Origin: Leptotrichia sp. HSP-342
GTDB taxonomy: Bacteria; Fusobacteriota; Fusobacteriia; Fusobacteriales; Leptotrichiaceae
Direction of reading: 5' to 3'
NCBI RefSeq assembly: GCF_041199995.1
Contig: NZ_CP165646.1
Location: forward strand, 248,001-312,000
Length of the DNA: 64,000 nucleotides
The notes beneath the pieces were generated by a model. The model was not told where the DNA came from. It ran no database searches and saw only the letters and a program-made list of their open reading frames with translations. This document shows positions 34,636 through 47,155 of the stretch, piece after piece (the first letter of the stretch is position 1; each line of letters begins with the position of its first letter). Made by a program: the position numbers and the translations under genes.

Positions 34636-35526
34636 TTAAAAATCTTTTGCATTTAACCACTTCAAAATTTCATCATAAATTTCATGTTTATTTGTTTCAT
34701 TGAGCGATTCATGCCGTCCGTTTTTATTTTCAAGAATATTTATTCTTCTTTTTTTCTTTCTTAATATATTAAAAATTTTACTGATATATGGAATGTCAAT
34801 TACTTTGTCATTAGTTCCATAAACAGCCAATATTTTTGCATGTTCATCTAATTTTTTATAATTTTTGTTAATAAATGACATTGTAGAAAAAATTCCAGAA
34901 AAAAACTTTGGTGTAACAGGATAGCCGCAAAGTTCGTCATCTTCATATTTTTTATTTTCAGCCTCATCTCTTGTTAACCAGTCAAATTTAGTTGTATTTG
35001 GCTCAAATGCTGAATTCCATTTTTCAAAAATTTTGTTAAATGCAGAAACTTTTCTGAAAATAATTCTTTCCAAAAGAGTAGCAAGTTTTCCACCGATGAC
35101 TTCTAATTGGCTTTTTAAAGGGAAAGCTGACAAAATAAAGTATTTGTATTTATTTTTTATTCCCCATTGTATTCCAATAAGAGCTCCCATACTATGTCCG
35201 AGAATAGTTGTATTGCTTGGAGTCGCTCCAACTTTACTCAGAATTTTTGTGAAAAAGTTGTCAATATCTTTAAAGGCAGATTTTATACCACCTTTTCCAA
35301 AATCTCCAATTTCACCGTCCTTCAGCTCGCCATGGCCACGAATTTCCATAACAAACACATTATATCCATTAGAAGCCAAAAATTCTGCAAATTCAGCATA
35401 TCTGTCAATAGGCTCTATCATTCCATGAAATATAACAACATTATTTTTATATTTTTCTCTTTTTGATTCAAAAAATAAATAAGGAATTTTTTTATTATCA
35501 AAACTTTCAAAATATTGTTTTTCCAT
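34636..35526 (-). CDS. Alpha/beta hydrolase, monoacylglycerol-lipase/lysophospholipase type
   Basis: A 296-residue hydrolase. The oxyanion region is VVIFHGMIEP, the nucleophile Ser sits in GHSMGALIG, the acid Asp is probably in YGTNDKVID, and the base His is in NGRHESLNE. The lid region (about 150-215) is hydrophobic and basic. The family (Hydrolase_4) cleaves fatty acids from lysophospholipids or monoglycerides. No signal peptide is visible, so it is cytoplasmic. It could feed fatty acids to the acyl-ligase fusion at 9031, but that link is speculation. Confidence 0.8.
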   Translation of the reverse strand: MEKQYFESFDNKKIPYLFFESKREKYKNNVVIFHGMIEPIDRYAEFAEFLASNGYNVFVMEIRGHGELKDGEIGDFGKGGIKSAFKDIDNFFTKILSKVGATPSNTTILGHSMGALIGIQWGIKNKYKYFILSAFPLKSQLEVIGGKLATLLERIIFRKVSAFNKIFEKWNSAFEPNTTKFDWLTRDEAENKKYEDDELCGYPVTPKFFSGIFSTMSFINKNYKKLDEHAKILAVYGTNDKVIDIPYISKIFNILRKKKRRINILENKNGRHESLNETNKHEIYDEILKWLNAKDF

Positions 35527-35684: not shown

Positions 35685-35714
35685 TAAAAACCCACAGATT
35701 ACTATATCTGTGGG
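35685..35714 (-). terminator. Terminator of the 22-codon peptide transcript
   Basis: On the minus strand CCCACAGATATAGTAATCTG then TGGG forms a 9-bp CCCACAGAT/ATCTGTGGG hairpin followed by T5. It ends the peptide mRNA about 27 bases after its stop. Confidence 0.85.
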
Positions 35715-35740
35715 CAAACGGAGATTGGAGGCTAAAATTA

Positions 35741-35809
35741 TTATTTGCTAAAATAGAAATAGAAAATTATGGCTATAATAACAACAAAGATGAAATCTCC
35801 GCTTATCAC
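35741..35809 (-). CDS. 22-residue hydrophobic peptide, candidate type I toxin (locus 1)
   Basis: GTG 35809 opens a 22-codon frame: M-ISGD, then a span of some 16 hydrophobic residues (FIFVVIIAIIFYFYF), then SK. AAGGTGAG lies 5 nt before the start, and a strong terminator follows the stop. In the transcript CGGAGATT inside the first codons can pair perfectly with AATCTCCG just beyond the stop (35719-35726 against 35794-35801). A second short frame, MKVRL then TGA, overlaps the GTG by four bases and could couple translation. Length, span, mRNA folding and the D-x-x-F...Y-x-x-x-S-[KR] pattern match the second locus at 46065. Type I toxins of many bacteria look like this. Confidence 0.6.
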   Translation of the reverse strand: MISGDFIFVVIIAIIFYFYFSK

Positions 35810-35870
35810 AATCTCACCTTCATCCTGTGTCAACTGGACGGTGAAGCTCAAAGTACTATAACATAAAAAA

Positions 35871-35901
35871 AAATACTCTAATCAATTATGAGTAGAGCAT
35901 T
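35871..35901. terminator. Bidirectional hairpin beside peptide locus 1
   Basis: AAATACTCTA pairs with TAGAGCATTT (one mismatch) with T runs on both strands. On the plus strand it could end an RNA antisense to the peptide mRNA 5' region; on the minus strand it isolates the peptide gene from upstream transcription. Confidence 0.5.
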
Positions 35902-36110
35902 TTTTCCACCTTTTTGTTAATACAGAATATTTTTCTCCATTTTTTATATATGTTTATTATATTACATACTATTTTATCAGTCAATCAAATTTCTATTACT
36001 TTTTCAGAAAATGGAAAATATGAAAAATATATGAAAAAAACTATATTAATTATGAAAAATATATGCTAAAATATAAAATATAGAAAAACAAAAATAAGGA
36101 GGAATTTTTA

Positions 36111-37529
36111 ATGAATTATAAAAATTTAGTAAATGGAGAATGGAAAGACTCTAAAAATACAATAACTATTTATTCGCCAATAAATGGGGAAGAACTTGGA
36201 ACTGTACCAGCTATGTCAAGAGAAGAAGTTGATTATGCTATGGAATCTGCTAGAAAGGCTCTACCTGCTTGGAGAGCATTGTCAGCTGTAGAAAGAGCGG
36301 CTTATTTGAATAAGGCTGCAGATATTCTTGAAAGAGATAAAGATAAAATTGGGGAAAACTTGGCAAAAGAAGTGGCAAAAGGAATTAAGGCTGCTATTTC
36401 AGAAGTAGTAAGAACGGCGGATTTGATTAGATATGCTGCAGAAGAAGGACTTAGAATCACAGGTGAATTTGTAAATGGTGGTGGATTTGAAGCTGGAAGC
36501 AAGAGAAAATATGGAGCAGTAAAAAGAGAGCCAGTTGGGGTTGTACTTGCAATCGCACCATTTAACTATCCAGTAAACTTATCAGCGTCTAAAATTGCAC
36601 CAGCATTAATTGGAGGAAATGTAGTAATTTTTAAACCGCCTACACAAGGTTCAATTAGCGGATTGTTATTAACTCAAGTATTTGCAGAAGCTGGAATTCC
36701 AGCGGGAGTATTTAACTCTGTAACTGGAAAAGGTTCTGAAATAGGAGATTATCTGATTGAACATAAAGAAGTTAATTTTATAAACTTTACAGGAAGTACA
36801 CCGATTGGGGAAAAAATTGGAAAACTTGCAGGAATGCGACCAATTATGCTTGAATTAGGTGGAAAAGACGCTGGAATCGTATTGGAAGACGCTGATTTAG
36901 AAAAAGCTGCAAAAGATATCGTAGCAGGAGCATTCAGCTATTCTGGACAAAGATGTACTGCTATCAAAAGAGTGCTTGTAATGGACTCTGTCGCTGATAA
37001 ATTGGCTAGCTTGATAAAAGCAGAAGTTGAAAAACTAACTGTGGGAGATCCTTTTGACAATGCTGACATTACAACAGTAATTGATACTCCATCAGCAGAC
37101 TTTATCGAAGGATTGATAAAAGATGCACAAGAAAAAGGTGCAAAAGCATTGACAACAGTAAAAAGAGAAAAAAACTTAATATGGCCAGTAGTTTTTGACA
37201 ATGTAACAACTGATATGAGAATTGCTTGGGAAGAGCCATTTGGACCAGTATTGCCAATTATCAGAATAAAATCTATAGATGAAGCAGTAGAAATTGCAAA
37301 CAAATCAGAATATGGACTTCAATCAGCAGTATTCACAAAAAATTTCCCATTGGCATTTGAAATTGCTGAAAAACTAGAAGTAGGAACAGTTCACATAAAT
37401 AACAAGACTCAAAGAGGGCCTGACAGCTTCCCATTCTTAGGAATCAAAGGTTCAGGAGCAGGAGTTCAAGGAATAAAATATAGCATAGAAAGCATGACAA
37501 GAGTTAAATCTATTGTATTTGATATATAG
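36111..37529 (+). CDS. gapN: NADP-dependent non-phosphorylating glyceraldehyde-3-phosphate dehydrogenase
   Basis: A 472-residue aldehyde-dehydrogenase-fold enzyme that oxidises glyceraldehyde 3-phosphate directly to 3-phosphoglycerate, yielding NADPH. The cofactor-side motif is IAPFNYPVNL, the general base Glu lies in LELGGKDAGI and the catalytic Cys in YSGQRCTAIKRVLV. The C-terminal part, TVHINNKTQRGPDSFPFLG, and the length are those of streptococcal GapN. AAGGAGG lies 8 nt before ATG. In a fermenter lacking the oxidative pentose-phosphate branch, this is a main NADPH source. Confidence 0.93.
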   Translation: MNYKNLVNGEWKDSKNTITIYSPINGEELGTVPAMSREEVDYAMESARKALPAWRALSAVERAAYLNKAADILERDKDKIGENLAKEVAKGIKAAISEVVRTADLIRYAAEEGLRITGEFVNGGGFEAGSKRKYGAVKREPVGVVLAIAPFNYPVNLSASKIAPALIGGNVVIFKPPTQGSISGLLLTQVFAEAGIPAGVFNSVTGKGSEIGDYLIEHKEVNFINFTGSTPIGEKIGKLAGMRPIMLELGGKDAGIVLEDADLEKAAKDIVAGAFSYSGQRCTAIKRVLVMDSVADKLASLIKAEVEKLTVGDPFDNADITTVIDTPSADFIEGLIKDAQEKGAKALTTVKREKNLIWPVVFDNVTTDMRIAWEEPFGPVLPIIRIKSIDEAVEIANKSEYGLQSAVFTKNFPLAFEIAEKLEVGTVHINNKTQRGPDSFPFLGIKGSGAGVQGIKYSIESMTRVKSIVFDI

Positions 37530-37538
37530 GAATTTGAG

Positions 37539-37569
37539 AGATGTTTTCTTTTGGGAGAACATCTTTTTT
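37539..37569 (+). terminator. Terminator after gapN
   Basis: AGATGTTTTC pairs with GAGAACATCT, followed by T6. Confidence 0.85.
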
Positions 37570-37619
37570 GAATTTTTATTTTTAATCTTAAATAAAAAGC
37601 TATTTTACGGAGGTTTCCT

Positions 37620-37778
37620 ATGAAAAAAATAACGATGTACACAGTATTAGCTTTGTCGGCACTGTCATCTGCAAGTTGTTCATATTTTAAAGTTGACAAA
37701 AACGCAGGGGAAAAATCAGGAAATATATGTACTTATTCAGCAAAGGGAGAATTTATAGGTTGTAAGCCTATAAAATAG
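37620..37778 (+). CDS. Small lipoprotein (52 aa), unknown function
   Basis: ATG 37620 follows ACGGAGG. The product opens MKKITMYTVLALSALSSAS with lipobox LSSASC, so acylation at Cys21 is likely. The mature 32 residues include two more cysteines (NICTYS, FIGCKP) that could form a disulfide and a KVDKNAGEKSG stretch. It is 41 bases upstream of the acid phosphatase gene and likely shares its transcript. No family recognised; too short for most gene finders. Confidence 0.6.
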   Translation: MKKITMYTVLALSALSSASCSYFKVDKNAGEKSGNICTYSAKGEFIGCKPIK

Positions 37779-37819
37779 CAAAATTTTGTTAGCCGAAAAA
37801 ATATATAGGAGGAAATGTT

Positions 37820-38542
37820 ATGAAAAAAGCATTATTATTTTTATTTGCTGCATCTGTAGTATTTGCAGCAGGACCAAAGGTTCCTTATACTCATGAGGGA
37901 TTTTATTCAACAGATAAAGTTCAAAAGGCTGTTCATTTTGTATCTGTTGATGATATTAAGAAGAGTCTAGAGGGAAAAGGACCAATTAATGTAAGTTTTG
38001 ACATTGATGACACATTGCTTCATTCAAGCGGATACTTTATCTATGGGCAACATTATTTCCAAATTCCAGGAGATAAAAGAGGAGCTGTAAGTTACCTTTA
38101 CAACCAAAAATTCTGGGATTATGTAGCTGAAAATGGAGATGAACATTCAATTCCAAAACAATCTGCAAAAGACTTGATAAAAATGCACTTGGAAAGAGGG
38201 GATAACGTATTTTTCATCACAGGAAGAACAAAACATTCAAAAGACAAAAACTATACTTCTACAAAACTTTCCAAAACATTGCAAAGATACTTTGAACTGC
38301 CAAAAGAAGTTTATGTAGAATACACAGCTGACACACCAACAAGTGGCTACAAATATGACAAATCATTCTACATCAAAAAACACAACGTTTCAATCCACTA
38401 CGGTGACAGTGACGATGATATCCTAGCCGCAAGAGAATTAGGAATAAGAGGAATAAGAGTTCAAAGAGCTTACAACTCTACAAATCCACAAAAAATGAAC
38501 GGTGGCTATGGAGAAGAAGTTCTAATAAACTCTGCGTGGTAA
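37820..38542 (+). CDS. aphA: Class B acid phosphatase (AphA type)
   Basis: A 240-residue exported HAD-family phosphatase. The signal peptide is MKKALLFLFAASVVFAAG. Motif I VSFDIDDTLLHSSGYF holds the nucleophile Asp and the acid/base Asp. FFITGRTKHSKD is motif II, Lys at PTSGYKYDKSFYIKK is motif III, and HYGDSDDDILAARE is motif IV. The LHSSGYF extension is specific to class B. These periplasmic enzymes strip phosphate from nucleotides and other monoesters. A GGAGGAAA ribosome-binding site precedes the start. Confidence 0.92.
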   Translation: MKKALLFLFAASVVFAAGPKVPYTHEGFYSTDKVQKAVHFVSVDDIKKSLEGKGPINVSFDIDDTLLHSSGYFIYGQHYFQIPGDKRGAVSYLYNQKFWDYVAENGDEHSIPKQSAKDLIKMHLERGDNVFFITGRTKHSKDKNYTSTKLSKTLQRYFELPKEVYVEYTADTPTSGYKYDKSFYIKKHNVSIHYGDSDDDILAARELGIRGIRVQRAYNSTNPQKMNGGYGEEVLINSAW

Positions 38543-38632
38543 AAATAAAAAAAGTTTATAACAAACATTTGAGGGTGTTTCATAAGTCAAAAATAATTTT
38601 ATTAACATGCAATATTATATATTTTTAAAAAT

Positions 38633-39517
38633 AGATCTATTCGACAACCTTGTATAAAGAACAATACTAGTGATGAAAATGATAAATGATAAATGATGTT
38701 GAAAGAATAAAAAAACTTAAGGAAGAAAACTATCAGGAAATTTTTGGTATTAAAAAGAATACTTTTGATAAAATACTGAAACTTTTGAATGAAGCATATA
38801 GAATTGAACACTTAAGAGGCGGACATCCGTCAAAACTGTCTGTTCTTGACGGGTTTATAATTATGATTTCGTATTAAGAACTATCGAAAATATTGCCTTT
38901 GAATATGGCGTTACAAAAAGTACCATCTGTAAGTGTGTTAAATAAACTGAGAACATACTGATAAAAAGCGGGGAGTTTTCTTTGTCTAAAAAGAGGGAGC
39001 TTGCCAGGGACACTGAGATAGAGGTTGTACTGGTTGACGCTACAGAATGCGAGATTGAGCACCCTAAAAAAATAGCGGAAATATTACTCAAGAAAAAAGA
39101 AAAAGCACATGATAAAAGCTCAGATAGTGGCAGACAAAAAAGATCTAGGGATACTTAATGTCTCATTTTCACATGGAAGCGTTCATGACTTTAAGCTGTT
39201 CTGTAAAAGCCGCGTGCAATTTTTAAAAGATGTCCTTTTAATTGTCGACAAAGGATACATAGGCATAAATAAGATACACAGTAACAGCTTGATACTTAAA
39301 AAATCGACAAAAAGGAACAAATTAACTAAAGAGGATAGAAAATACAATTCAACTATTTCAAAACAGAGAATCTACATGGAGCATGTGAACAGGCATATCA
39401 AGAAATTCAGGATAGTGTCTAAACGTTACAGAAAAAAGAGAAGAAAATTTTCCATGAGATAGATTCTCGTTGATTTGTGCAATTTATAATTTTGAACTAT
39501 AGGTTTCAATCAGGTCT
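38633..39517 (+). mobile_element. IS5-like insertion sequence, decayed full-length copy
   Basis: About 885 bp from AGATCTATTCGACAACC at the left to GGTTTCAATCAGGTCT at the right, diverged versions of the terminal repeats of the copy at 54727-56702. Transposase pieces are an N-terminal block from 38686 (VERIKKLKEENYQEIFGIKK, LRGGHPSKLSVLDG) and a C-terminal block from 39109 (LGILNVSFSHGSVHDFKLF, IVDKGYIGINKIH), separated by stops and a deletion. Inactive. No target duplication is visible. Confidence 0.8.
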
Positions 39518-39756
39518 ACTAAACTCCATCTAATTAACAGAATGAGTCTATTGATGAAGAGTTATGCTTTTTAGCAGTTCATCTGTAAAATGGAATTATA
39601 GTATCACAAACTCGTCAACTACAGCATTTAGTGTCTTGAATATCCTGTTGTTAGATCTGCTTTTTTTAGTTCAGATTTGTGGTGTAAATATGCTATTATA
39701 ATGTTTCTAAGCATCTTTAAATCTTTTGATTTATGTTATGTCTAATTGGTTCAATA

Positions 39757-40058
39757 TTATACCTCTTTTATTTCATTTGTGCTTAGTAATTCACCTTTTC
39801 CTTCTCTTTCCTTGAACCGTTTCAGAAACTCCTCTTCCTCTTCAAATGTCATATTTTTATGATTTTCACTCTTTGGTCTGTTCACAAACTCCTTGTATTC
39901 TTTGCTCTGAAAAATATGATTATCCATTTGCTCACAACTTTATGATGAACATCTAAAATTTTAGCTATTTCCTTGTTCTTTTTGTCCATATCTCTTATAT
40001 TTTCATTTTTGTTTTTTATTATTTTTCTAATTATTCTTATTTCGTATGTTTTTATCAT
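39757..40058 (-). pseudogene. IS630-type transposase N-terminal (helix-turn-helix) remnant
   Basis: ATG 40058 on the minus strand gives MIKTYEIRIIRKIIKNKNEN, then DVHHKVVSKWI, a helix-turn-helix. A frameshift leads to KSENHKNMTFEEEEEFLKRF and GELLSTNEIKEV. This order matches the first ORF of IS630-group elements. The DDE part is absent: 39518-39756 holds only stop-rich sequence. Different from the IS630 copies at 54.4 and 63.3 kb. Confidence 0.6.
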
Positions 40059-40173
40059 TTTCAGTACTCTATTTATTATATCTCATTATTTTCAGTTAGT
40101 TTAATGGGTTTTAGTATTATTATTTTTTCCATAATATATGGTATCTCAAATTAGAATTTTATCTTAAATTTTT

Positions 40174-40207
40174 ATAAAAAAAGACTGTCTCATAATTATG
40201 AAACAGC
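40174..40207 (-). terminator. Terminator of the DUF333 protein gene
   Basis: On the minus strand CTGTTTCATAATTATGAGAC then AG folds (CTGTTTCAT/ATGAGACAG, one G-U) and runs into T7. Confidence 0.85.
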
Positions 40208-40241
40208 CTTGTCTTTGTTAATAATAAAAAGTTTAAGATTA

Positions 40242-40685
40242 TTAGTTATTTTGTCTGTAATAATCCCATTCATCAATTTGTGTACCATTTCTAAATTTAC
40301 ATACACCTTTTTCGTTACCATTACTGTCTTTAACAGTAATAGACTTTCCACCTTTATCTACACAGAATTTTGCAGCAGGATTTGGTGTTCCTATAACTTG
40401 TTTTTCGAAGTCTCTAGTAGTGTTATTTTGTCTGTAGTATTCCCATTCTTCTACGGCTGTTCCGTCTTTTAGCTTGCAGACTCCATATTCACCTTTTTTA
40501 CCTTTAACATTGATAGATTGTCCACCTTGTTTTTGGCAAAATTCTGAAGCAGGATTTGGTGTACTTACTACAGGCGGTGTAGAATTATTGTTATTGTGAT
40601 TTCTATTTTTTCTCACAGTTCTTGCCATACCAATAACAGATAACATAACCATTATTACAGTTATAACAATTTTTAAATTTTTCAT
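40242..40685 (-). CDS. Exported protein with two DUF333 repeats
   Basis: 147 residues. A signal peptide or anchor (about 1-22) is followed by an Asn-rich linker and two copies of the DUF333 module. Copy 1 is NPASEFCQKQGGQSINVKG ... GVCKLKDGTAVEEWEYYRQ. Copy 2 is NPAAKFCVDKGGKSITVKD ... GVCKFRNGTQIDEWDYYRQ. Each has a conserved Cys pair, likely a disulfide. DUF333 proteins are periplasmic or surface exposed, often called putative hemolysins without evidence. Function unknown. Confidence 0.8.
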   Translation of the reverse strand: MKNLKIVITVIMVMLSVIGMARTVRKNRNHNNNNSTPPVVSTPNPASEFCQKQGGQSINVKGKKGEYGVCKLKDGTAVEEWEYYRQNNTTRDFEKQVIGTPNPAAKFCVDKGGKSITVKDSNGNEKGVCKFRNGTQIDEWDYYRQNN

Positions 40686-40789
40686 TTCTAATTCTCCTTT
40701 TTATTTTAGTATATCAATTGTTTATATCATAAAAAAATTTGTTACTTTTATGATTATTATTATTTTTTACTTAAAAAGTATTTGTTAAA

Positions 40790-42334
40790 TTACTCCCACT
40801 CAATTGTTCCTGGTGGCTTAGAAGAAATATCATACACAATTCTGTTAATCCCGTTCACTTTGTTTATAATCTTATTTGACACTTCTTCTAGGAATTCGTA
40901 AGGCAGTTTTGACCATGTAGCAGTCATGAAGTCGATGGTATTTACTGAACGAATAGCTGCTACGTATTCATAAGTTCTTTGATCGCCCATAACTCCGACA
41001 GTTTTTACAGGTAGTAATGTTACGAATGCCTGATCTACTTTGTCGTAAAGTCCTTGTGCCATTAGTTCTGTGATGAAGATGTCGTCAGCTTCTTGAAGGA
41101 TTTTTACTTTGTCAGGAGTTACTTCTCCGATAACTCTGATTCCAAGTCCTGGGCCTGGGAATGGGTGTCTTTTTATAATTGTGTCAGGTAGTCCAAGTTC
41201 ATGTCCTACTTTTCGTACTTCGTCTTTAAATAGCTCTTTTAAAGGTTCAAGTAATTCAAATTGCAAGTCTTCTGGCAATCCTCCTACGTTATGGTGAGAT
41301 TTTATTGTATGGGAAGGGCCTTTTATAGACTGAGATTCAATTACATCTGGGTAAATTGTTCCTTGTGCTAGGAATTTCGCTCCTTCTTGTCCTTTAAGTT
41401 TTCTAATTTCTTCGTTAAATACTTCGATAAATTCGTTTCCAATGATTTTTCTCTTGGCTTCAGGCTCGTCTACGCCTTTTAATTTATTTAAAAATCTGTC
41501 TTTTGCATCAACGAAAACAATGTTTAAGTCAAAGTGTTTTTTGTAATATTCAAGAACTTTTTTTCCTTCATCTTTTCTTAGAAGACCAGTATCTACAAAC
41601 ATACAAGTAAGCTGGTGCCCGATTGCATTGTTAATCAGAACTGCGGCAACTGATGAATCTACTCCACCAGAAAGGGCAAGCAGTACGTGTTCATCTCCGA
41701 CAGTTTCCTTGATGGATTTTGTTTTTTCAGTAATAAAACTTGAAATTTTCCAGTTTTTTTCGCATTTACAGATGTTAAATACAAAATTTTCCAAAATTTG
41801 TGTTCCACATTCAGAATGGACTACTTCTGGATGGAATTGAAGTGCATAAATTCCATTGTTGTTTGTAATTGCGGCGATTGATGAATCTGTTTTTGCGATA
41901 ATTTCAAATCCTGTTGGCAATTCTGTGATGTGATCGTTGTGGCTCATCCAGATGTTAGAAGATTTTTTTACTCCTGTAAACAAAGGATTATCATTATTTT
42001 CTACTTCTAATACAGCTTTTCCGAACTCTCTTGAATCTGCCTTTTCAACTTTTCCACCGTTTAAGTGTGTGATTAGTTGCATTCCATAGCAAATACCCAA
42101 AATAGGAAGATTTAAGTTAAATACTTCAGGATTTACAGTTGGAGCACCTTTTTCGTAAACTGAAGCAGGACCTCCTGAAAAGATGATACCTTTTACCTTT
42201 TCTTCTCCATTTTTTATTTTTTCAATATCAATTAAAGGTACAATTTCACAATAAACTTCCATTTCCCTAATTCTTCTGGCAATTAATTGGCTGTATTGTG
42301 AACCAAAATCGATGATAATAATTTTTTCTTTCAC
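40790..42334 (-). CDS. guaA: GMP synthase (glutamine-hydrolysing)
   Basis: A 514-residue cytoplasmic enzyme making GMP from XMP, ATP and glutamine. The N-terminal class I amidotransferase has nucleophile Cys in [11 protein letters not shown] and the His/Glu of [11 protein letters not shown]. The ATP-pyrophosphatase domain has the P-loop [12 protein letters not shown], and the C-terminal dimerisation domain ends [13 protein letters not shown], the invariant GuaA terminus. Complete. No purine riboswitch is visible upstream; a perfect 18-bp palindrome lies at 42470. Confidence 0.97.
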
Positions 42335-42469
42335 TTTTCACCTCTATTTATTAAAATTTTTTTATAAAACATAATTTTATGTAAATATTTTAGCATTATT
42401 TTTAAGTTTTTTCTATATATTTTTATAAAATTTAATTTTTAATTTTTTAGTTAAATTATTTTTAGAATG

Positions 42470-42487
42470 TGTCTAAAATTTTAGACA
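42470..42487. promoter_or_regulatory. Perfect 18-bp palindrome upstream of guaA
   Basis: TGTCTAAAATTTTAGACA is fully self-complementary and lies 136 bases before the guaA start and 135 bases after the glycyl radical enzyme stop. It could be a repressor operator or a weak bidirectional hairpin. Confidence 0.4.
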
Positions 42488-42541
42488 AATATTTTTGAGA
42501 TTTAATTTTTTTTCTTTTATTTGCTTATCTTAAAAGATTAT

Positions 42542-42578
42542 AAAAAATACAAGAAGCTAGCAATTTTAGGCTTCTTGT
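42542..42578 (-). terminator. Terminator of the glycyl radical enzyme operon
   Basis: On the minus strand ACAAGAAGC pairs perfectly with GCTTCTTGT, followed by ATTTTTT. Confidence 0.9.
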
Positions 42579-42621
42579 ATAGAGAAAACTTATATATAAA
42601 AATTATCTAAAAGATAAATGT

Positions 42622-45024
42622 TTATATTCTTTGTTCAGTTCTTGAAATAATATCATTTTGTGTAGTTCTGTCAAGTGTAACAAATTGAGCGCAGTATCCA
42701 GCAACTCTTACTATTATATCTCTATGTTTTTCAGGTTCAACTTGCGCTTGCTTTAATGTTTTTCCTGAAATAATGTTAAATTGAATATGCCATCCTTTTG
42801 AACTTATAAATGATTTTATTACATTTACAAATTTTTCAAACTGTTCTGGAGTATTTACTAATTCTGGCGGATATTTTTGATTCAATAACTGTCCACCTGT
42901 AATCATTAGAGTTGGCAATTTGTTTACAGAATTTAGTACTGCTGTTGGACCATTTGTGTCAGTTCCTTGAGTTGGTGAACCACCTTCAGCTGCTGGTGTG
43001 TAGGCATATCTTCCGTCTGGAGTTGCACCGCTCACCGTTCCCATTGGTACATTTGATGAGATTCCAGATGTAGAAACTCCGTAACCACAATTAATAGGGC
43101 CTCTTCCATATCTTGTATTATGATATTTTTGAATTTCGTCAATATATGTCCAGTAAATATTTGTAGCAAATACATCCACTTCATCAATATCATTTCCATA
43201 TTTAGGTACTTCTAACAATATTTTTCTGATTCGTTGTCCATTTTCTCCAGCATAATTTGTCTGAAGGGCATTGTAAACTTCTTCTTTTGTTAATATTTTA
43301 TTATCAAAAACAATAGTTTTTAGAGCGTATAGTGAATTTGCAGCATTTGCAATTCCCACTTGAAGACCTGAAATGATGTCATAAACAGCTCCACCTTCTT
43401 TTGCGGAAAGTCCTCTGCCAATACAGTCATCAATAAGGCTTGATAATAAAATATCAGGGAATTCTTCCAAATGTGTATCAGACAATGCGTCAAGTGCTAC
43501 TGATAATTTTGTATAGTGTTTCATGTATTTTTTCCATGCTTCCCACAAATCATCGTAAGTTTCATAGTCAGTAAGTTTTCCAGCTTTTAGTAATTGAAGT
43601 CCAGTTCTAGCATCATAGCCATCGGTCAACACAAGTTCAGTTGCTTTTACAAAGTTTAAGAAAGTCATACCAGTACATCTATATCCCCATTTTCCAGGAA
43701 CAGCCACTTCTACACATCCAACCATTGAATAATTGTAGGCATCTTCAATTTTTACGCCTTTATTTAACAATGCAGGAACTATTATTTCATCTGTATGCAT
43801 TGCAGGCATTCCATAACCTGTTGCGGCTACTTCGGCACATTTTCTAATAAATTTTTCTGGAGAATTTATGTGAAATCTTGCTGACAGGTTTGGCTGTGTA
43901 AGCTTATTTTCTCCAACACTTTCCAGTATTAAATAGCTTAATTCATTTGTAGAATCTTTTCCAGCTGGAGTCGATCCTCCTATTGTAACATTTTGATAAG
44001 TTGGATAACCTGCACCATAACCAGAATGCGAAGTTGAACGGACTTTTATTACAGAGTAAAGTTTTACCCATAGACATTGCAGCATTTCTTTTGCAAATTC
44101 TCTGTCTAAATCACCTTCCAGTACCTCTTTTTTGTAAAGTGGATATAAATATTGATCCACTCTTCCAAGAGAAGCTGAATGTCCATTGCTTTCAATCTGA
44201 ATTACTAGATGGATAAACCAGATTGCTTGTACTCCTTCCCAAAATGTCTGAGCAGGATTTTCTGGTACGTTTAGACAATTTTTGTGAATTTGAAGTAATT
44301 CTTCTTTTCTTTGGGAATCAGTTTCCTTTTCAGCAAGTCCCTTTGCCAAATTTGCAAATCTATGAGCAAAATCAATAGTTGCCTGTGCTACAATTTGTAC
44401 AGCCTTTAAGAAGTCGATTTTATTGTATCCGCCATAAACTGTAATGTCTACTTTTTCCATAGAAGCCTTAGCTTCTTCAATTACACCTTTTAGCCCTTTT
44501 GTCAAAACCTTTTTAAAATCAGGAACAATGTGTCCGTCACCAGAGGTCATATTTCCTTCTCCGTGAATAATTTTTGCGATTCCAGCTTCTTTTATTTCCT
44601 GAGGCATTTGAGCGTGAGCTTTATCCTTTAATGTTTTTCCACGCCACCATTCGCATATTTCAAGTAATTCTGGAATTTCTTCTTCGGGTATTCTGAATTT
44701 ATCTCCGTCTCTATGGTCAAAGTTACCTTTTGTCTTGATTTCATCAATAATCCAATCTACTGCATATTCTGGGAAAAGGGGAGCAGTTCTCTCGTCTACA
44801 GACTGATTTCCTACGACAAGTTCCCCATCTTTTATATAAATTGTCATATTTTCTAAAATTTCCTTAACTGCGTAAGCACGGACAATATATTTTGATTTTC
44901 CTTCATGTTCCTTGTATGCTTTTGTCAAAAGTCTTCCTCTTTCGACACTGACACCAGGAAATTTTGATAAAGCCGATTCTCTTAATTTTTTTACTCTTTC
45001 GCTTTTCAAAACAAATTCTTTCAT
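42622..45024 (-). CDS. Glycyl radical enzyme, YbiW/PflD type
   Basis: 800 residues. The radical site is RVAGYCAQF with Gly776, 24 residues from the C terminus. The active-site loop is VGCVEVAVPGK with Cys437 and Glu439. Cys-x-Glu is the pattern of dehydratase/lyase members (glycerol, choline, hydroxyproline types) rather than the Cys-Cys of pyruvate formate-lyase, so formate production is not supported. Overall sequence (IESNGHSASLGRVDQYLYP, YQNVTIGG, GWHIQFNI) tracks E. coli YbiW, whose substrate is not established. The activase gene lies 43 bases upstream in the same operon. Oxygen-sensitive chemistry fits an anaerobe. Confidence 0.88.
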   Translation of the reverse strand: MKEFVLKSERVKKLRESALSKFPGVSVERGRLLTKAYKEHEGKSKYIVRAYAVKEILENMTIYIKDGELVVGNQSVDERTAPLFPEYAVDWIIDEIKTKGNFDHRDGDKFRIPEEEIPELLEICEWWRGKTLKDKAHAQMPQEIKEAGIAKIIHGEGNMTSGDGHIVPDFKKVLTKGLKGVIEEAKASMEKVDITVYGGYNKIDFLKAVQIVAQATIDFAHRFANLAKGLAEKETDSQRKEELLQIHKNCLNVPENPAQTFWEGVQAIWFIHLVIQIESNGHSASLGRVDQYLYPLYKKEVLEGDLDREFAKEMLQCLWVKLYSVIKVRSTSHSGYGAGYPTYQNVTIGGSTPAGKDSTNELSYLILESVGENKLTQPNLSARFHINSPEKFIRKCAEVAATGYGMPAMHTDEIIVPALLNKGVKIEDAYNYSMVGCVEVAVPGKWGYRCTGMTFLNFVKATELVLTDGYDARTGLQLLKAGKLTDYETYDDLWEAWKKYMKHYTKLSVALDALSDTHLEEFPDILLSSLIDDCIGRGLSAKEGGAVYDIISGLQVGIANAANSLYALKTIVFDNKILTKEEVYNALQTNYAGENGQRIRKILLEVPKYGNDIDEVDVFATNIYWTYIDEIQKYHNTRYGRGPINCGYGVSTSGISSNVPMGTVSGATPDGRYAYTPAAEGGSPTQGTDTNGPTAVLNSVNKLPTLMITGGQLLNQKYPPELVNTPEQFEKFVNVIKSFISSKGWHIQFNIISGKTLKQAQVEPEKHRDIIVRVAGYCAQFVTLDRTTQNDIISRTEQRI

Positions 45025-45067
45025 TGTTTTTCCTCCATTTTTTTATTATTTTTATCTTTAATTTTCG

Positions 45068-45886
45068 TTATCCATATAATTTTGCTTTCAATCCGTAACT
45101 GTTCATTATGCCTACAGCGTTATCTAGTTCCGCTTGTGTATGTTTTTCCAATGTTTTCATAGGATATTCACGACCTAGTTTTCTATATTTTTCTAATCCC
45201 ATTGTGTGATAGGGGAGAATGTTTACTTCTAGAAGATTCAATTTTTTTAGGAATTCTGCTGTTTGACGAATATTCTTCTCGTCATCATTAATTCCTTTTA
45301 TAAACGGAAATCGCATAATGATTTTTTTGTGCCATTTTGAAAGTTTTGTAAGATTTTCTAAAATAATTTCATTTGAGACAGAAGTGTATTCCTTATGTTT
45401 TTGGCTATTTAAGTACTTTATATCAAATAATACAGTATCTGTTAGTTTTGCTAAATTTTCAAGATCCTTGTAATTCCCATATCCTGTCGTTTCTATGGCC
45501 GTATTAACATATTCTTCTTTTAACTTTTCAAAAAGTTCTATTGCAAAACCTGAATTTACAAGTATTTCTCCGCCACTCAATGTAACACCGCCACCAGAAT
45601 TTCTATAAAAGTTTTCATCTTTCATAACGATTTCAAATACTTCTTCCAGTGTCATGTCTTTTGCAACTTGTTTTAGTGAATTTGCGGCAGGACAGCCAGA
45701 ACATGGATTTTTGTTTCCTTTGTAAAGAGAGCCATCATAATCCCAAAATTCATTTTCCAATTTTTGCGTTTCAGGATTGGAACACCACAGACATCTAAGT
45801 GGACATCCTTTAAAATACACGACTGTTCTAATTCCTGGTCCATCAAATGTAGCTCCTCTTTCAATATCTGTAACTAATGCTCTCAT
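45068..45886 (-). CDS. Glycyl radical enzyme activase (radical SAM)
   Basis: 272 residues. The CX3CX2C cluster motif is in FKGCPLRCLWCSN (Cys28, Cys32, Cys35), with the glycine-rich SAM site SGGEIL. It abstracts a hydrogen from the partner's glycine to switch on the enzyme encoded downstream. Between the motif and the barrel, most dehydratase-type activases carry an eight-Cys insert for two extra clusters. Here the insert is short and keeps only NPCSGCPAAN, so the auxiliary clusters appear lost or reduced. Opens the two-gene operon. Confidence 0.9.
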   Translation of the reverse strand: MRALVTDIERGATFDGPGIRTVVYFKGCPLRCLWCSNPETQKLENEFWDYDGSLYKGNKNPCSGCPAANSLKQVAKDMTLEEVFEIVMKDENFYRNSGGGVTLSGGEILVNSGFAIELFEKLKEEYVNTAIETTGYGNYKDLENLAKLTDTVLFDIKYLNSQKHKEYTSVSNEIILENLTKLSKWHKKIIMRFPFIKGINDDEKNIRQTAEFLKKLNLLEVNILPYHTMGLEKYRKLGREYPMKTLEKHTQAELDNAVGIMNSYGLKAKLYG

Positions 45887-45949
45887 AGATTATCTACCTC
45901 TTTTTCTTTTTAAAAAATCTGTAGTTTCAAATTGTTTCTTTATATTTCG

Positions 45950-45978
45950 ATTTTATCCTATTTTTGAAAATTTGTCAA
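45950..45978 (-). promoter_or_regulatory. Promoter of the activase/glycyl radical enzyme operon
   Basis: On the minus strand TTGACA (45978-45973), 17-base spacer, TAAAAT (45955-45950). The leader to the activase start is about 55 bases. Confidence 0.75.
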
Positions 45979-46055
45979 TAGTTTTATTTAATTTTATAAA
46001 AAATTATAAAAAACCTGCAATATAAATATAATTGCAGGGGAAAATGTTTTTTCGT

Positions 46056-46149
46056 TTTGGGGTGTTATCTTCTGCTTAGGATGTAGTAAATAACCACAAG
46101 TTGAACTAATATAAAAACTATATCCCGTTTCATTGGACATCACCCCAAA
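46056..46149 (-). promoter_or_regulatory. Self-sequestering mRNA arms of peptide locus 2
   Basis: TTTGGGGTG at 46056-46064 is the exact reverse complement of CACCCCAAA at 46141-46149. In the minus-strand transcript these are the ribosome-binding region and the bases directly after the stop codon, so the 22-codon frame is enclosed by a 9-bp clamp. Confidence 0.75.
46065..46133 (-). CDS. 22-residue hydrophobic peptide, candidate type I toxin (locus 2)
   Basis: ATG 46133 opens a 22-codon frame: MKRD, a hydrophobic span VFILVQLVVIYYIL after one Ile, then SRR. The ribosome-binding site GGGGTGA lies 6 nt upstream and sits inside a 9-bp clamp with the sequence immediately after the stop. Upstream on the same strand are a good promoter (46302-46274), a 17-codon leader frame (MKKQRQELAQFGLVFLY), a terminator-like hairpin, and the inverted repeat AATCATAATATGAA (46150-46163 with 46246-46259). 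Length and residue pattern match the peptide at 35741. The organisation is that of type I toxin genes, whose mRNA folds to block translation until processed and whose antitoxin is an antisense RNA. Confidence 0.6.
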   Translation of the reverse strand: MKRDIVFILVQLVVIYYILSRR

Positions 46150-46202
46150 TCATAATATGAATTAGGTAACGAACCTAAAAATGTTATAAAAAATTTAATA
46201 CA

Positions 46203-46228
46203 AAAAAACTAGCCCAAATTGAGCTAGC
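46203..46228 (-). terminator. Leader hairpin of peptide locus 2
   Basis: On the minus strand CTAGCTCAATTTGGGCTAG is followed by T7. Transcripts from the promoter at 46274-46302 would end here after about 65 bases or read through into the peptide frame. Confidence 0.65.
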
Positions 46229-46273
46229 TCTTGTCGTTGTTTTTTCATATTATGATTGTTTTCTTGTATAACA

Positions 46274-46302
46274 ATTATACTATAAAAAAAATAATTATTC
46301 AA
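46274..46302 (-). promoter_or_regulatory. Promoter of peptide locus 2
   Basis: On the minus strand TTGAAT (46302-46297), 17-base spacer, TATAAT (46279-46274). Confidence 0.7.
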
Positions 46303-46438
46303 TCAAAAAATTTTCAAAAAAATTAAAAAAATAGATTGACATTTCTTAAATTATATATTAAAATTGTATCGAAATAAAACGAAACCAATTAAAATATTAA
46401 ACTATTTGATATAAAAAACAAAAGAAAGGATGACAGAA

Positions 46439-47155
46439 ATGCAATATTTTATTGATACGGCAAATTTAGAAAATATAAAAAAAATCAGTGATATTTTTCC
46501 AATAGCAGGTGTAACTACAAATCCTACTATTATTGCAAAGGAAAAAAGAGATTTTAAGGATATTATAAATGATATTTTTGATATTATTGGAAGAGATAAA
46601 ATTGTGCATGTACAGGCTGTGGGAAGTACAGCTGAAATAATGATAAAAGAAGTGAAGCTTCTGCATGATACTTTTGGAGAAAATCTTTATACAAAAATCC
46701 CTGTAACGCCTGAAGGTATAAAAGCTATAAAAAATTTGGCAAAAGATGGATATAAAATTACTGCAACAGGTATTTTGTCACCTCAGCAGATAATTATGGC
46801 AGCTGAAGCAGGAGCAGAATACATGGCTCCATATATCAATCGTTCTGATAACATTGGCGAAAATGGAATTGAAATTGTAAAAGATGCATATAAAATCCTT
46901 GAAATGACTAAAAAAACTGATGAGGAAAAACTGGCACGGTACAAAAGAATTTTTGAGCCAAAAATATTAGGAGCTTCATTTAAGAATGTAAGACAAGTTC
47001 ATGAAGCAATTCTAGCTGGATCAAAATCTGTAACAGTAGCTCCAGACGTTTTTGAAAAATTAATTTATCATCCTTACACAGACTGGAGCATGGATACATT
47101 TAATTCAGACTGGGAAAAAGTTTATGGCCAAAAAACATTGCTTGATTTATTATAA
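46439..47155 (+). CDS. fsa: Fructose-6-phosphate aldolase / transaldolase-like protein
   Basis: A 238-residue class I aldolase of the small transaldolase family. MQYFIDTANLENIK and AGVTTNPTIIAKE are the family opening. The Schiff-base lysine is in NLYTKIPVTPEG, and the catalytic region continues with KITATGILSPQQ and MAPYINRSDN. The frame also opens at ATG 46430, but AAAGGA is 8 nt before ATG 46439. It could cleave fructose 6-phosphate to dihydroxyacetone and glyceraldehyde 3-phosphate, or act as transaldolase. Slightly longer than E. coli FsaA (220). Confidence 0.85.
   Translation: MQYFIDTANLENIKKISDIFPIAGVTTNPTIIAKEKRDFKDIINDIFDIIGRDKIVHVQAVGSTAEIMIKEVKLLHDTFGENLYTKIPVTPEGIKAIKNLAKDGYKITATGILSPQQIIMAAEAGAEYMAPYINRSDNIGENGIEIVKDAYKILEMTKKTDEEKLARYKRIFEPKILGASFKNVRQVHEAILAGSKSVTVAPDVFEKLIYHPYTDWSMDTFNSDWEKVYGQKTLLDLL

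Follow-up and report, generated by a model that had tools for sequence, protein, structure and literature searches.

Two short peptide genes on the minus strand of a 64,000-nt stretch of the Leptotrichia sp. HSP-342 genome (contig NZ_CP165646.1; this stretch is referred to as the window, and coordinates are positions within it) probably belong to a new family of type I toxin-antitoxin modules. Each locus would be a module read wholly from one strand, in which an antitoxin RNA of about 65-90 nt, with its own sigma-70-like promoter, is encoded directly upstream of the toxin gene; in modules of the locus 1 type the antitoxin terminator would overlap the toxin promoter. The toxin mRNA is predicted to begin with a small stem-loop, the loop of which would bind the antitoxin by complementarity together with the stretch preceding the Shine-Dalgarno (SD) sequence, and at full length it would hide the SD, at locus 2 by means of an anti-SD element after the stop codon. 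The product, a hydrophobic peptide of 20-24 residues with an Asp near the N terminus and Ser/Asn-Lys/Arg near the C terminus, is expected to span and damage the inner membrane once the antitoxin runs out.

The open reading frames (ORFs), the constraint on their amino acids, promoter- and terminator-like sites, covarying copy-specific complementarity and patterns of decay are all visible in the sequence; RNA pairing and coding are in our judgement close to certain. In addition, the RNA of locus 2 coincides with the motif manA-II (RF04315), and we propose, as the most consequential part of this analysis, that manA-II is a toxin mRNA.

A peptide profile run against 98 Fusobacteriota genomes gave 34 hits at E ≤1.1e-5 in 10 genomes, with E-values that are not independent since many family sequences were in the profile. 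Thirty-three of these hits lie in nine of the 13 Leptotrichia genomes and one in a genome of another genus of the same family (G023); the next match, at E 0.0022, is a decayed copy in G005. The peptides form three subfamilies, A (locus 1), B (locus 2, manA-II) and C (M[AV]DFIAIFILFVI..Y.LNR), with L155 as a C-like outlier. In a search with a sequence model of the locus 1 type, 14 copies stood out clearly (gap from 1.9e-7 to 7.2e-5), and RF04315 matched at E ≤0.001 in 12 of the 98 genomes and above the Rfam cut-off in nine, all Leptotrichia. Candidate relatives elsewhere in the phylum were rejected, as the sequence-model and peptide-profile matches outside Leptotrichia and G023 look like noise. 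The original prediction, made from the window alone, had taken the two peptides for a possible dispersed type I toxin family of fusobacteria; further copies exist in related genomes, with the same anatomy and cognate RNA antitoxins, in a far narrower range than "of fusobacteria" implies, and the adjacent antitoxin RNA genes had been overlooked.

Predicted Antitoxin RNAs and Copy-Specific Pairing

Each window toxin is preceded on its own strand by a predicted small RNA (sRNA) gene, which consists of a sigma-70-like promoter, a body rich in A and a terminator-like hairpin. In locus 1 and its relatives the toxin -35 element lies in the 3' arm of this hairpin, and the T-run falls within the promoter spacer. 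The toxin leader runs from the 5' stem-loop through site 1, a 10-15 nt stretch just before the SD that is complementary to the sRNA, to the SD itself, and the sRNA carries the site 1 antisense followed by the anti-loop. The contacts at locus 2 are AATCATAATATGAA with TTCATATTATGATT and AACGA with TCGTT, and those at locus 1 are CTGTATTAAC with GTTGACACAG (one mismatch) and an anti-loop around GGTGG with a loop around TTCACC. Pairing with the own leader reaches -23.9 kcal/mol at locus 1 (shuffle mean -16.2; 4 of 200 dinucleotide shuffles as good) and -19.0 kcal/mol at locus 2 (shuffle mean -13.4; 9 of 200), which taken alone gives modest support.

For a family-wide comparison, segments were cut automatically (-235 to -78 and -54 to -6), and the 33 copies were reduced to 13 leader groups with one representative each in the pairing matrix. 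The identity assignment of sRNAs to leaders was the optimum for all 13 (diagonal sum -336.5; permutations averaged -213.7, standard deviation 14.7), and none of 100,000 permuted assignments was as low; the cognate pairing was the row minimum in 10 groups and the column minimum in 11. A hand-marked matrix of 13 copies agrees within orthologue groups, L079 excepted, and among 26 copies compared singly with 200 dinucleotide shuffles each, 20 had four or fewer shuffles as good. Moreover, copies occupying the same site (L127/L129, L062/L106, L100/L101) have ORFs that are 94-100% identical and differ in the leaders and in the pairing parts of the sRNAs; positional identities are blurred where segment lengths differ (L127, L062/L106), and there the sequences themselves were relied on.

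In G003, two neighbouring C copies pair crosswise at -30.2 and -26.5 and with their own partners at only -13.2 and -11.7. Both contact sites are exchanged, as though recombination had swapped the sRNA genes, and a third C copy pairs with itself at -27.6. Three C-type modules lie within 2.2 kb in this region (L159; G003 C1:580400-584200). Judged by sequence, the candidate antitoxin is an RNA complementary to the toxin mRNA throughout the family, with L097/L098, L079 and L159 as exceptions. For a cis-antisense antitoxin opposite the toxin, the promoter scans list only one weak plus-strand site (9/12) per locus, no systematic search having been made.

Constrained Hydrophobic Peptides and a Buried Shine-Dalgarno Sequence

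Proportions of nonsynonymous and synonymous differences (pN/pS) were 0.272/0.594 in subfamily A (55 pairs), 0.109/0.312 in B (15 pairs) and 0.097/0.226 in C (28 pairs), the pairs not being independent, and the ratio is 0.35-0.46 across the three; the toxin frames are most likely translated. The peptides are hydrophobic, with a grand average of hydropathy of 1.05-2.14 and a mean hydropathy of 2.59-3.52 over 15-residue cores (six peptides computed), and their length of 20-24 residues would suit the small (<60 residues), hydrophobic toxins of type I systems.

The two 22-codon minus-strand frames, each inside a divergent gap, were confirmed where the original prediction had placed them, and so was its view that their leaders are unrelated in sequence. 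Counted from the Asp, both peptides share the register D1-x11-Y13-x2-[FL]16-S17-[KR]18; the predicted signature stands as D-x11-Y-x3-S-[KR], and D-x-x-F is true of these two and not of the family, which keeps only D-[FIV]. The frame of peptide 1 has further TTG starts upstream, giving alternatives of 30 or 36 residues, and among the three possible starts the SD-like AAGGTGAG precedes the GTG only. Within the window, the pattern D[FIV].{8,11}[YT]..[FIL][SN][KR], picked post hoc when the peptides and some relatives were already known, is found in frames of 15-40 residues in just the two peptides (peptide 1 through its three starts); 30 imitations of the window by a first-order Markov model averaged 0.1 such finds, with at most 1 in any of them.

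The SD is generally hidden in the modelled structures, as expected of the folded mRNAs of type I systems: its accessibility is ≤0.4 in 30 of 33 full-length folds, a count made without a shuffled control. The suggested complementarity between ribosome-binding site and post-stop bases was present at both loci, as GGGGTG/CACCCC at locus 2, where P1 of RF04315 pairs the SD with bases directly after the stop codon, and at locus 1 as a CCTCC element downstream of the stop codon, where dropping the anti-SD-like element leaves the SD closed in the fold.

manA-II as a Candidate Toxin mRNA

Locus 2 is a member of RF04315 by sequence and structure, matching over the full length (1-147) with 139.4 bits against a gathering score of 100. 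In the part of the source available, manA-II is a "strong riboswitch candidate" with 85 examples in Leptotrichia, located upstream of manA and of a pflA-like gene and having a terminator that may be under ligand control, and no coding frame in the motif is mentioned there; the main text contains neither "toxin" nor "peptide" (Narunsky et al., 2024; PMC11109978). A full-text literature search for manA-II returned, beyond that study, unrelated papers only. By our reading, the Rfam consensus itself holds a frame of 22 codons from AUG to UAA that starts just before helix P2. A structured element lacking a coding frame would be a poor description of a motif whose frame appears to be constrained; here this conserved frame is joined by a predicted antitoxin RNA gene nearby. 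Rfam evidence for locus 1 was discarded, manA-II scoring 19.2 bits there, below the cut-off and, as we read it, out of codon register.

Among the 13 Leptotrichia genomes, pflA was found in 10 (E ≤1e-100) and manA in 12 (E ≤1e-80), and the presence of the motif upstream of pflA was judged by reading the sequences together with RF04315 matches. An intact-frame manA-II precedes pflA in four genomes (G001, G003, G009, G010); in two others the RNA scores above the Rfam cut-off with a broken frame, through loss of the start codon and frame in G012 and a short frame-shifting deletion in G004; and in the other four (G002, G005, G007, G011) there is no toxin mRNA and the sRNA body is kept, with site 1 unchanged in three. 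Upstream of manA, the motif has an intact frame in six genomes, is decayed in two (G004, G005), reduced to a scrap in one (G003) and not visible in three (G006, G009, G013). That an antitoxin should outlast its toxin agrees with a toxin-antitoxin module and is difficult to account for if the RNA is an aptamer; the orphan sRNAs (L170, L172, L169, L175) may have another target, serve as anti-addiction RNAs or be decaying.

The site TTGACA-N17-TAAAAT lies just upstream of pflA in all 10 genomes, four of them without the toxin mRNA, and manA has TTGTAA-N17-TAT[CT]AT nearby in 10 of 12, with a looser match in the other two. Such separate promoter-like sites speak against transcription of these genes through the motif, and a leader-peptide attenuator of pflA or manA was rejected on account of them and of the genomes that have no motif.

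Alternative Explanations

That locus 2 is a riboswitch as published, with a ligand-binding three-stem junction, a terminator attenuating pflA or manA and an accidental frame, draws on the 139.4-bit match, on the placement and terminator described in the available part of the publication (PMC11109978) and on the position of manA-II upstream of, and codirectional with, pflA or manA at both sites. It is hard to reconcile with a 22-codon frame under amino-acid constraint and a P1 in which the SD is paired with bases following the stop codon, with the promoter-like site that pflA possesses even where the motif is missing and the motif's presence with an intact frame at only six of 12 manA genes, and with an adjoining sRNA complementary to the leader and modules of the same anatomy that precede unrelated or convergent genes; we regard it as highly improbable. 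Two unrelated type I toxin families might instead have arrived independently at a hydrophobic core flanked by Asp on one side and Ser-Lys/Arg on the opposite side, which would be compatible with the toxin-antitoxin interpretation and seems to us unlikely. Pairwise, peptide-only homology of the two window loci was not significant; a profile of the locus 1 type alone gave the window's locus 2 peptide E 2.5 and the best member of its type E 0.056, and a B+C profile had no A peptide among the ten best listed, which, with the unrelated leaders, would suit convergence. With an A+C profile, in contrast, all seven B peptides as well as the one in the window scored E 1.2e-5 to 4e-4, and the best unrelated window frame, among 2033 frames, reached 0.34; an A+B profile found C peptides from E 2.1e-4, and the subfamilies share a codon-exact register and the one-strand anatomy of sRNA followed by toxin. 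The original prediction that both peptides belong to one family stands by profile and gene anatomy and is weak for the two sequences by themselves; common descent of the subfamilies is likely, though the peptides alone are no proof of it.

Sequence is our sole basis; that the RNAs are transcribed, the frames translated, the peptides toxic and the antitoxins active through RNA pairing is inferred from it, and purifying selection cannot tell a toxin from a benign peptide. The product could accordingly be a small membrane protein under sRNA control, a regulatory or stress peptide, and no toxin; dispersed copies, broken toxin frames, leftover sRNA bodies and local antitoxin swaps fit a toxin-antitoxin module better, and we consider a benign product quite unlikely and toxicity of the peptides very likely. 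Several observations weigh against the toxin-antitoxin interpretation. Promoter-like sites are not clearly commoner in the two AT-rich stretches than in shuffles. When the RNA is cut after the stop codon, just 14 of the 33 folds open the SD to at least 0.5, so that 3' processing is not a general means of activation; at the window loci, 3' trimming changes SD accessibility from 0.30 to 0.29 (locus 1) and from 0.00 to 0.21 (locus 2). Six of the 26 copies compared singly are weaker pairers, with 9 (window locus 2), 18 (L099), 26 (L128), 31 (L082), 41 (L097) and 85 (L159) of 200 shuffles as good, L159 because of its crosswise pairing with the neighbouring copy. The sRNA body is lost in L097/L098, and the leader of L079 has decayed while its sRNA still fits L077. 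At the toxin-less pflA sites the sRNA -10 element is still TATAAT in G007 alone and has drifted in three of four, so that these RNAs may be dying and not selected. Finally, single-subfamily profiles are weak and two of three hold-out comparisons succeed, which limits the kinship of subfamilies that peptides alone can support.

Distribution and Mobility

The neighbourhoods of the copies are many, and some copies adjoin unrelated genes; by mechanical ORF calling, the next frame of at least 75 residues is convergent for eight of 33 copies (L082, L099, L102, L135, L136, L141, L155, L159). Blocks with L132/L097 in G023 and L083/L098 in G004 (L149 and L150; a toxin copy with neighbouring genes) are 96% identical over about 4.3 kb between two genera, which makes recent horizontal transfer probable. 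L140 and L141 adjoin genes that by eye resemble phage or plasmid replication genes; as to spread on phages or plasmids, the L140 unit, the only copy compared, had no match in plasmid and phage collections, and two patterns had none in viral contigs. Near-palindromic CCCTTAGGGG-like stretches lie close to both ends of the C-type modules L137, L140, L141 and L159 and are perhaps remnants of an inserting element or a terminator.

Module remnants at L080, L081, L085 and L092 have no recognisable toxin frame, and a larger, membrane-protein-like frame (MNKLIQNFNYK...) follows the leader. At L086, L088, L090 and L091, in four genomes, module scrap comprising the overlap of sRNA terminator and toxin promoter lies directly 5' of a threonine synthase-like gene (named by eye), as if reused as a promoter.

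A wider interpretation, which seems to us equally apt to hold or to fail, is that Fusobacteriota harbour a type I superfamily whose toxin frame stays nearly constant and whose antitoxin RNA and toxin leader are replaced jointly, as matched "key and lock" pairs, giving many mutually orthogonal allelic pairs per genus, with manA-II as one branch. Neighbouring modules would then swap their antitoxin genes, and these would persist after the toxin is lost, perhaps serving as anti-addiction antidotes.

Relation to Known Systems

Eight peptides searched up to E 10 against NCBIfam and Pfam, which includes Hok, Ldr, Ibs, TisB and Fst models, matched no toxin family and gave sub-cut-off matches to unrelated families only; three peptides had no match in PADLOC, and peptide 1 had none among PDB chains. 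Within these collections the earlier impression that no named family carries the signature holds. The epithet "undescribed" is apt for the toxin-mRNA reading of manA-II, which appears new, and inapt for the locus 2 RNA, a known Rfam family. Pairs such as ShoB/OhsC, Zor/Orz and TimP/TimR likewise have an adjacent, non-overlapping sRNA antitoxin of limited complementarity, and differ in their divergent arrangement and in their peptides. AapA/IsoA of Helicobacter and Ibs/Sib of Escherichia coli share very short hydrophobic toxins, several copies per genome, structured mRNAs, a hidden SD and loop contacts, and differ in that their antitoxins are encoded opposite the toxin gene.

By analogy, the nearest mechanism would be pairing of the TisB/IstR-1 kind, and the gene order resembles that of type III ToxIN. 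In TisB/IstR-1 of E. coli, according to the available part of the source, an adjacent, separately encoded sRNA likewise base-pairs with the mRNA leader of a small hydrophobic peptide; the two genes, tisB and istR-1, run divergently, their complementarity spans 21 nt and the toxin has 29 residues (PMC4147584). In organisation the Leptotrichia modules differ, as they lie on one strand, would pair in two blocks and encode 20-24 residues. ToxIN also has an antitoxin RNA gene, terminator and toxin gene in a row and, in the parts available, is reported in Fusobacteria (PMC4147584) and named in Leptotrichia (PMC8040213); its RNA has tandem repeats and binds a protein toxin, whereas the Leptotrichia RNA is complementary to the toxin mRNA and the putative toxin is a 22-residue peptide.

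Before a cyanobacterial case in 2025, Proteobacteria, Firmicutes and Tenericutes were the only groups with known type I systems, as stated in the available part of that report (PMC12390103). In the literature searched, with T1TAdb outside its scope, no paper by its title describes a type I toxin-antitoxin system in Fusobacterium or Leptotrichia, and within that literature the present family is apparently the first of type I for Fusobacteriota. If the interpretation is right, Fusobacteriota would join the groups with type I systems, and the anatomy of the modules is easy to search for; the label of cis-regulatory riboswitch candidate on an Rfam family would be corrected and a fruitless ligand hunt spared; and 13 diverged antitoxin-leader pairs together with a natural swap would make type I RNA-RNA specificity directly testable in a laboratory E. 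coli.

Feature Map and Surroundings

Table 1. Features predicted at the two window loci, in window positions.
Feature	Positions	Strand	Detail or basis
Locus 1: predicted promoter of antitoxin sRNA 1, TTGACT-N17-TATAAT	35956..35984	-	11/12 consensus matches, sequence match only
Predicted antitoxin sRNA 1 (ends approximate)	35862..35950	-	site 1 antisense 35916-35928, anti-loop GGTGGA 35905-35910, hairpin 35876-35897 and T-run
Predicted toxin 1 promoter	35855..35885	-	-35 TTGATT in 3' arm of sRNA terminator, T-run in spacer, -10 TATAGT, spacer 19
5' stem-loop of toxin mRNA 1, loop TTCACC (antitoxin contact 2)	35836..35849	-	by eye
Site 1, toxin 1 leader, complementary to sRNA 1	35822..35834	-	complementarity
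SD-like AAGGTGAG of toxin 1	35813..35820	-	sequence
Toxin 1 ORF, 22 codons, GTG start, VISGDFIFVVIIAIIFYFYFSK	35741..35809	-	subfamily A
Post-stop anti-SD-like element CCTCCAATCTCC	35720..35731	-	complementarity
Intrinsic terminator-like hairpin of toxin mRNA 1	35686..35715	-	sequence
Locus 2: predicted promoter of antitoxin sRNA 2, TTGAAT-N17-TATAAT	46274..46302	-	10/12 consensus matches
Predicted antitoxin sRNA 2 (ends approximate)	46202..46268	-	site 1 antisense AATCATAATATGAA 46244-46257, anti-loop AACGA 46234-46238, terminator 46202-46232
5' stem-loop of toxin mRNA 2, TTAGGT-TCGTT-ACCTAA, loop = antitoxin contact 2	46162..46178	-	by eye
Site 1, toxin 2 leader, TTCATATTATGATT, exact 14-nt complement of sRNA 2	46148..46161	-	complementarity
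RF04315 (manA-II), read as toxin 2 mRNA, within site 1 to terminator	46007..46154	-	139.4 bits
SD-like GGGGTGAT of toxin 2, in P1 5' strand of manA-II	46139..46146	-	sequence
Toxin 2 ORF, 22 codons, ATG start, MKRDIVFILVQLVVIYYILSRR	46065..46133	-	subfamily B
Post-stop anti-SD CACCCC, P1 3' strand	46059..46064	-	complementarity
Intrinsic terminator-like hairpin of toxin mRNA 2	46008..46038	-	sequence
Separate promoter-like site of pflA, TTGACA-N17-TAAAAT, downstream of toxin terminator	45950..45978	-	11/12

The predicted promoter of toxin 1 was missed by the promoter scan, which allowed spacers of 16-18. With gene names assigned by eye, locus 1 lies between a hydrolase-like gene (34636-35526, minus strand) and a divergent aldehyde dehydrogenase-like gene (36111-37529, plus strand), and locus 2 between the pflA-like gene (45068-45886, minus strand) and a divergent transaldolase-like gene (46430-47155, plus strand). 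Between the loci, two plus-strand frames at 38686-39462 resemble, by eye, fragments of a single broken transposase.

The T-run in the spacer of the toxin 1 promoter (35862-35875) has 9, 7 and 6 T in the window, L001 and L002, giving spacers of 19, 17 and 16, and this variation in length is a possible slippage switch. Within 35813-35849 the SD of locus 1 reads GAAGG in the window, as against GGAGG in L001 and AGAGG in L002, and the 5' stem of the window locus is weaker than in these two orthologues.

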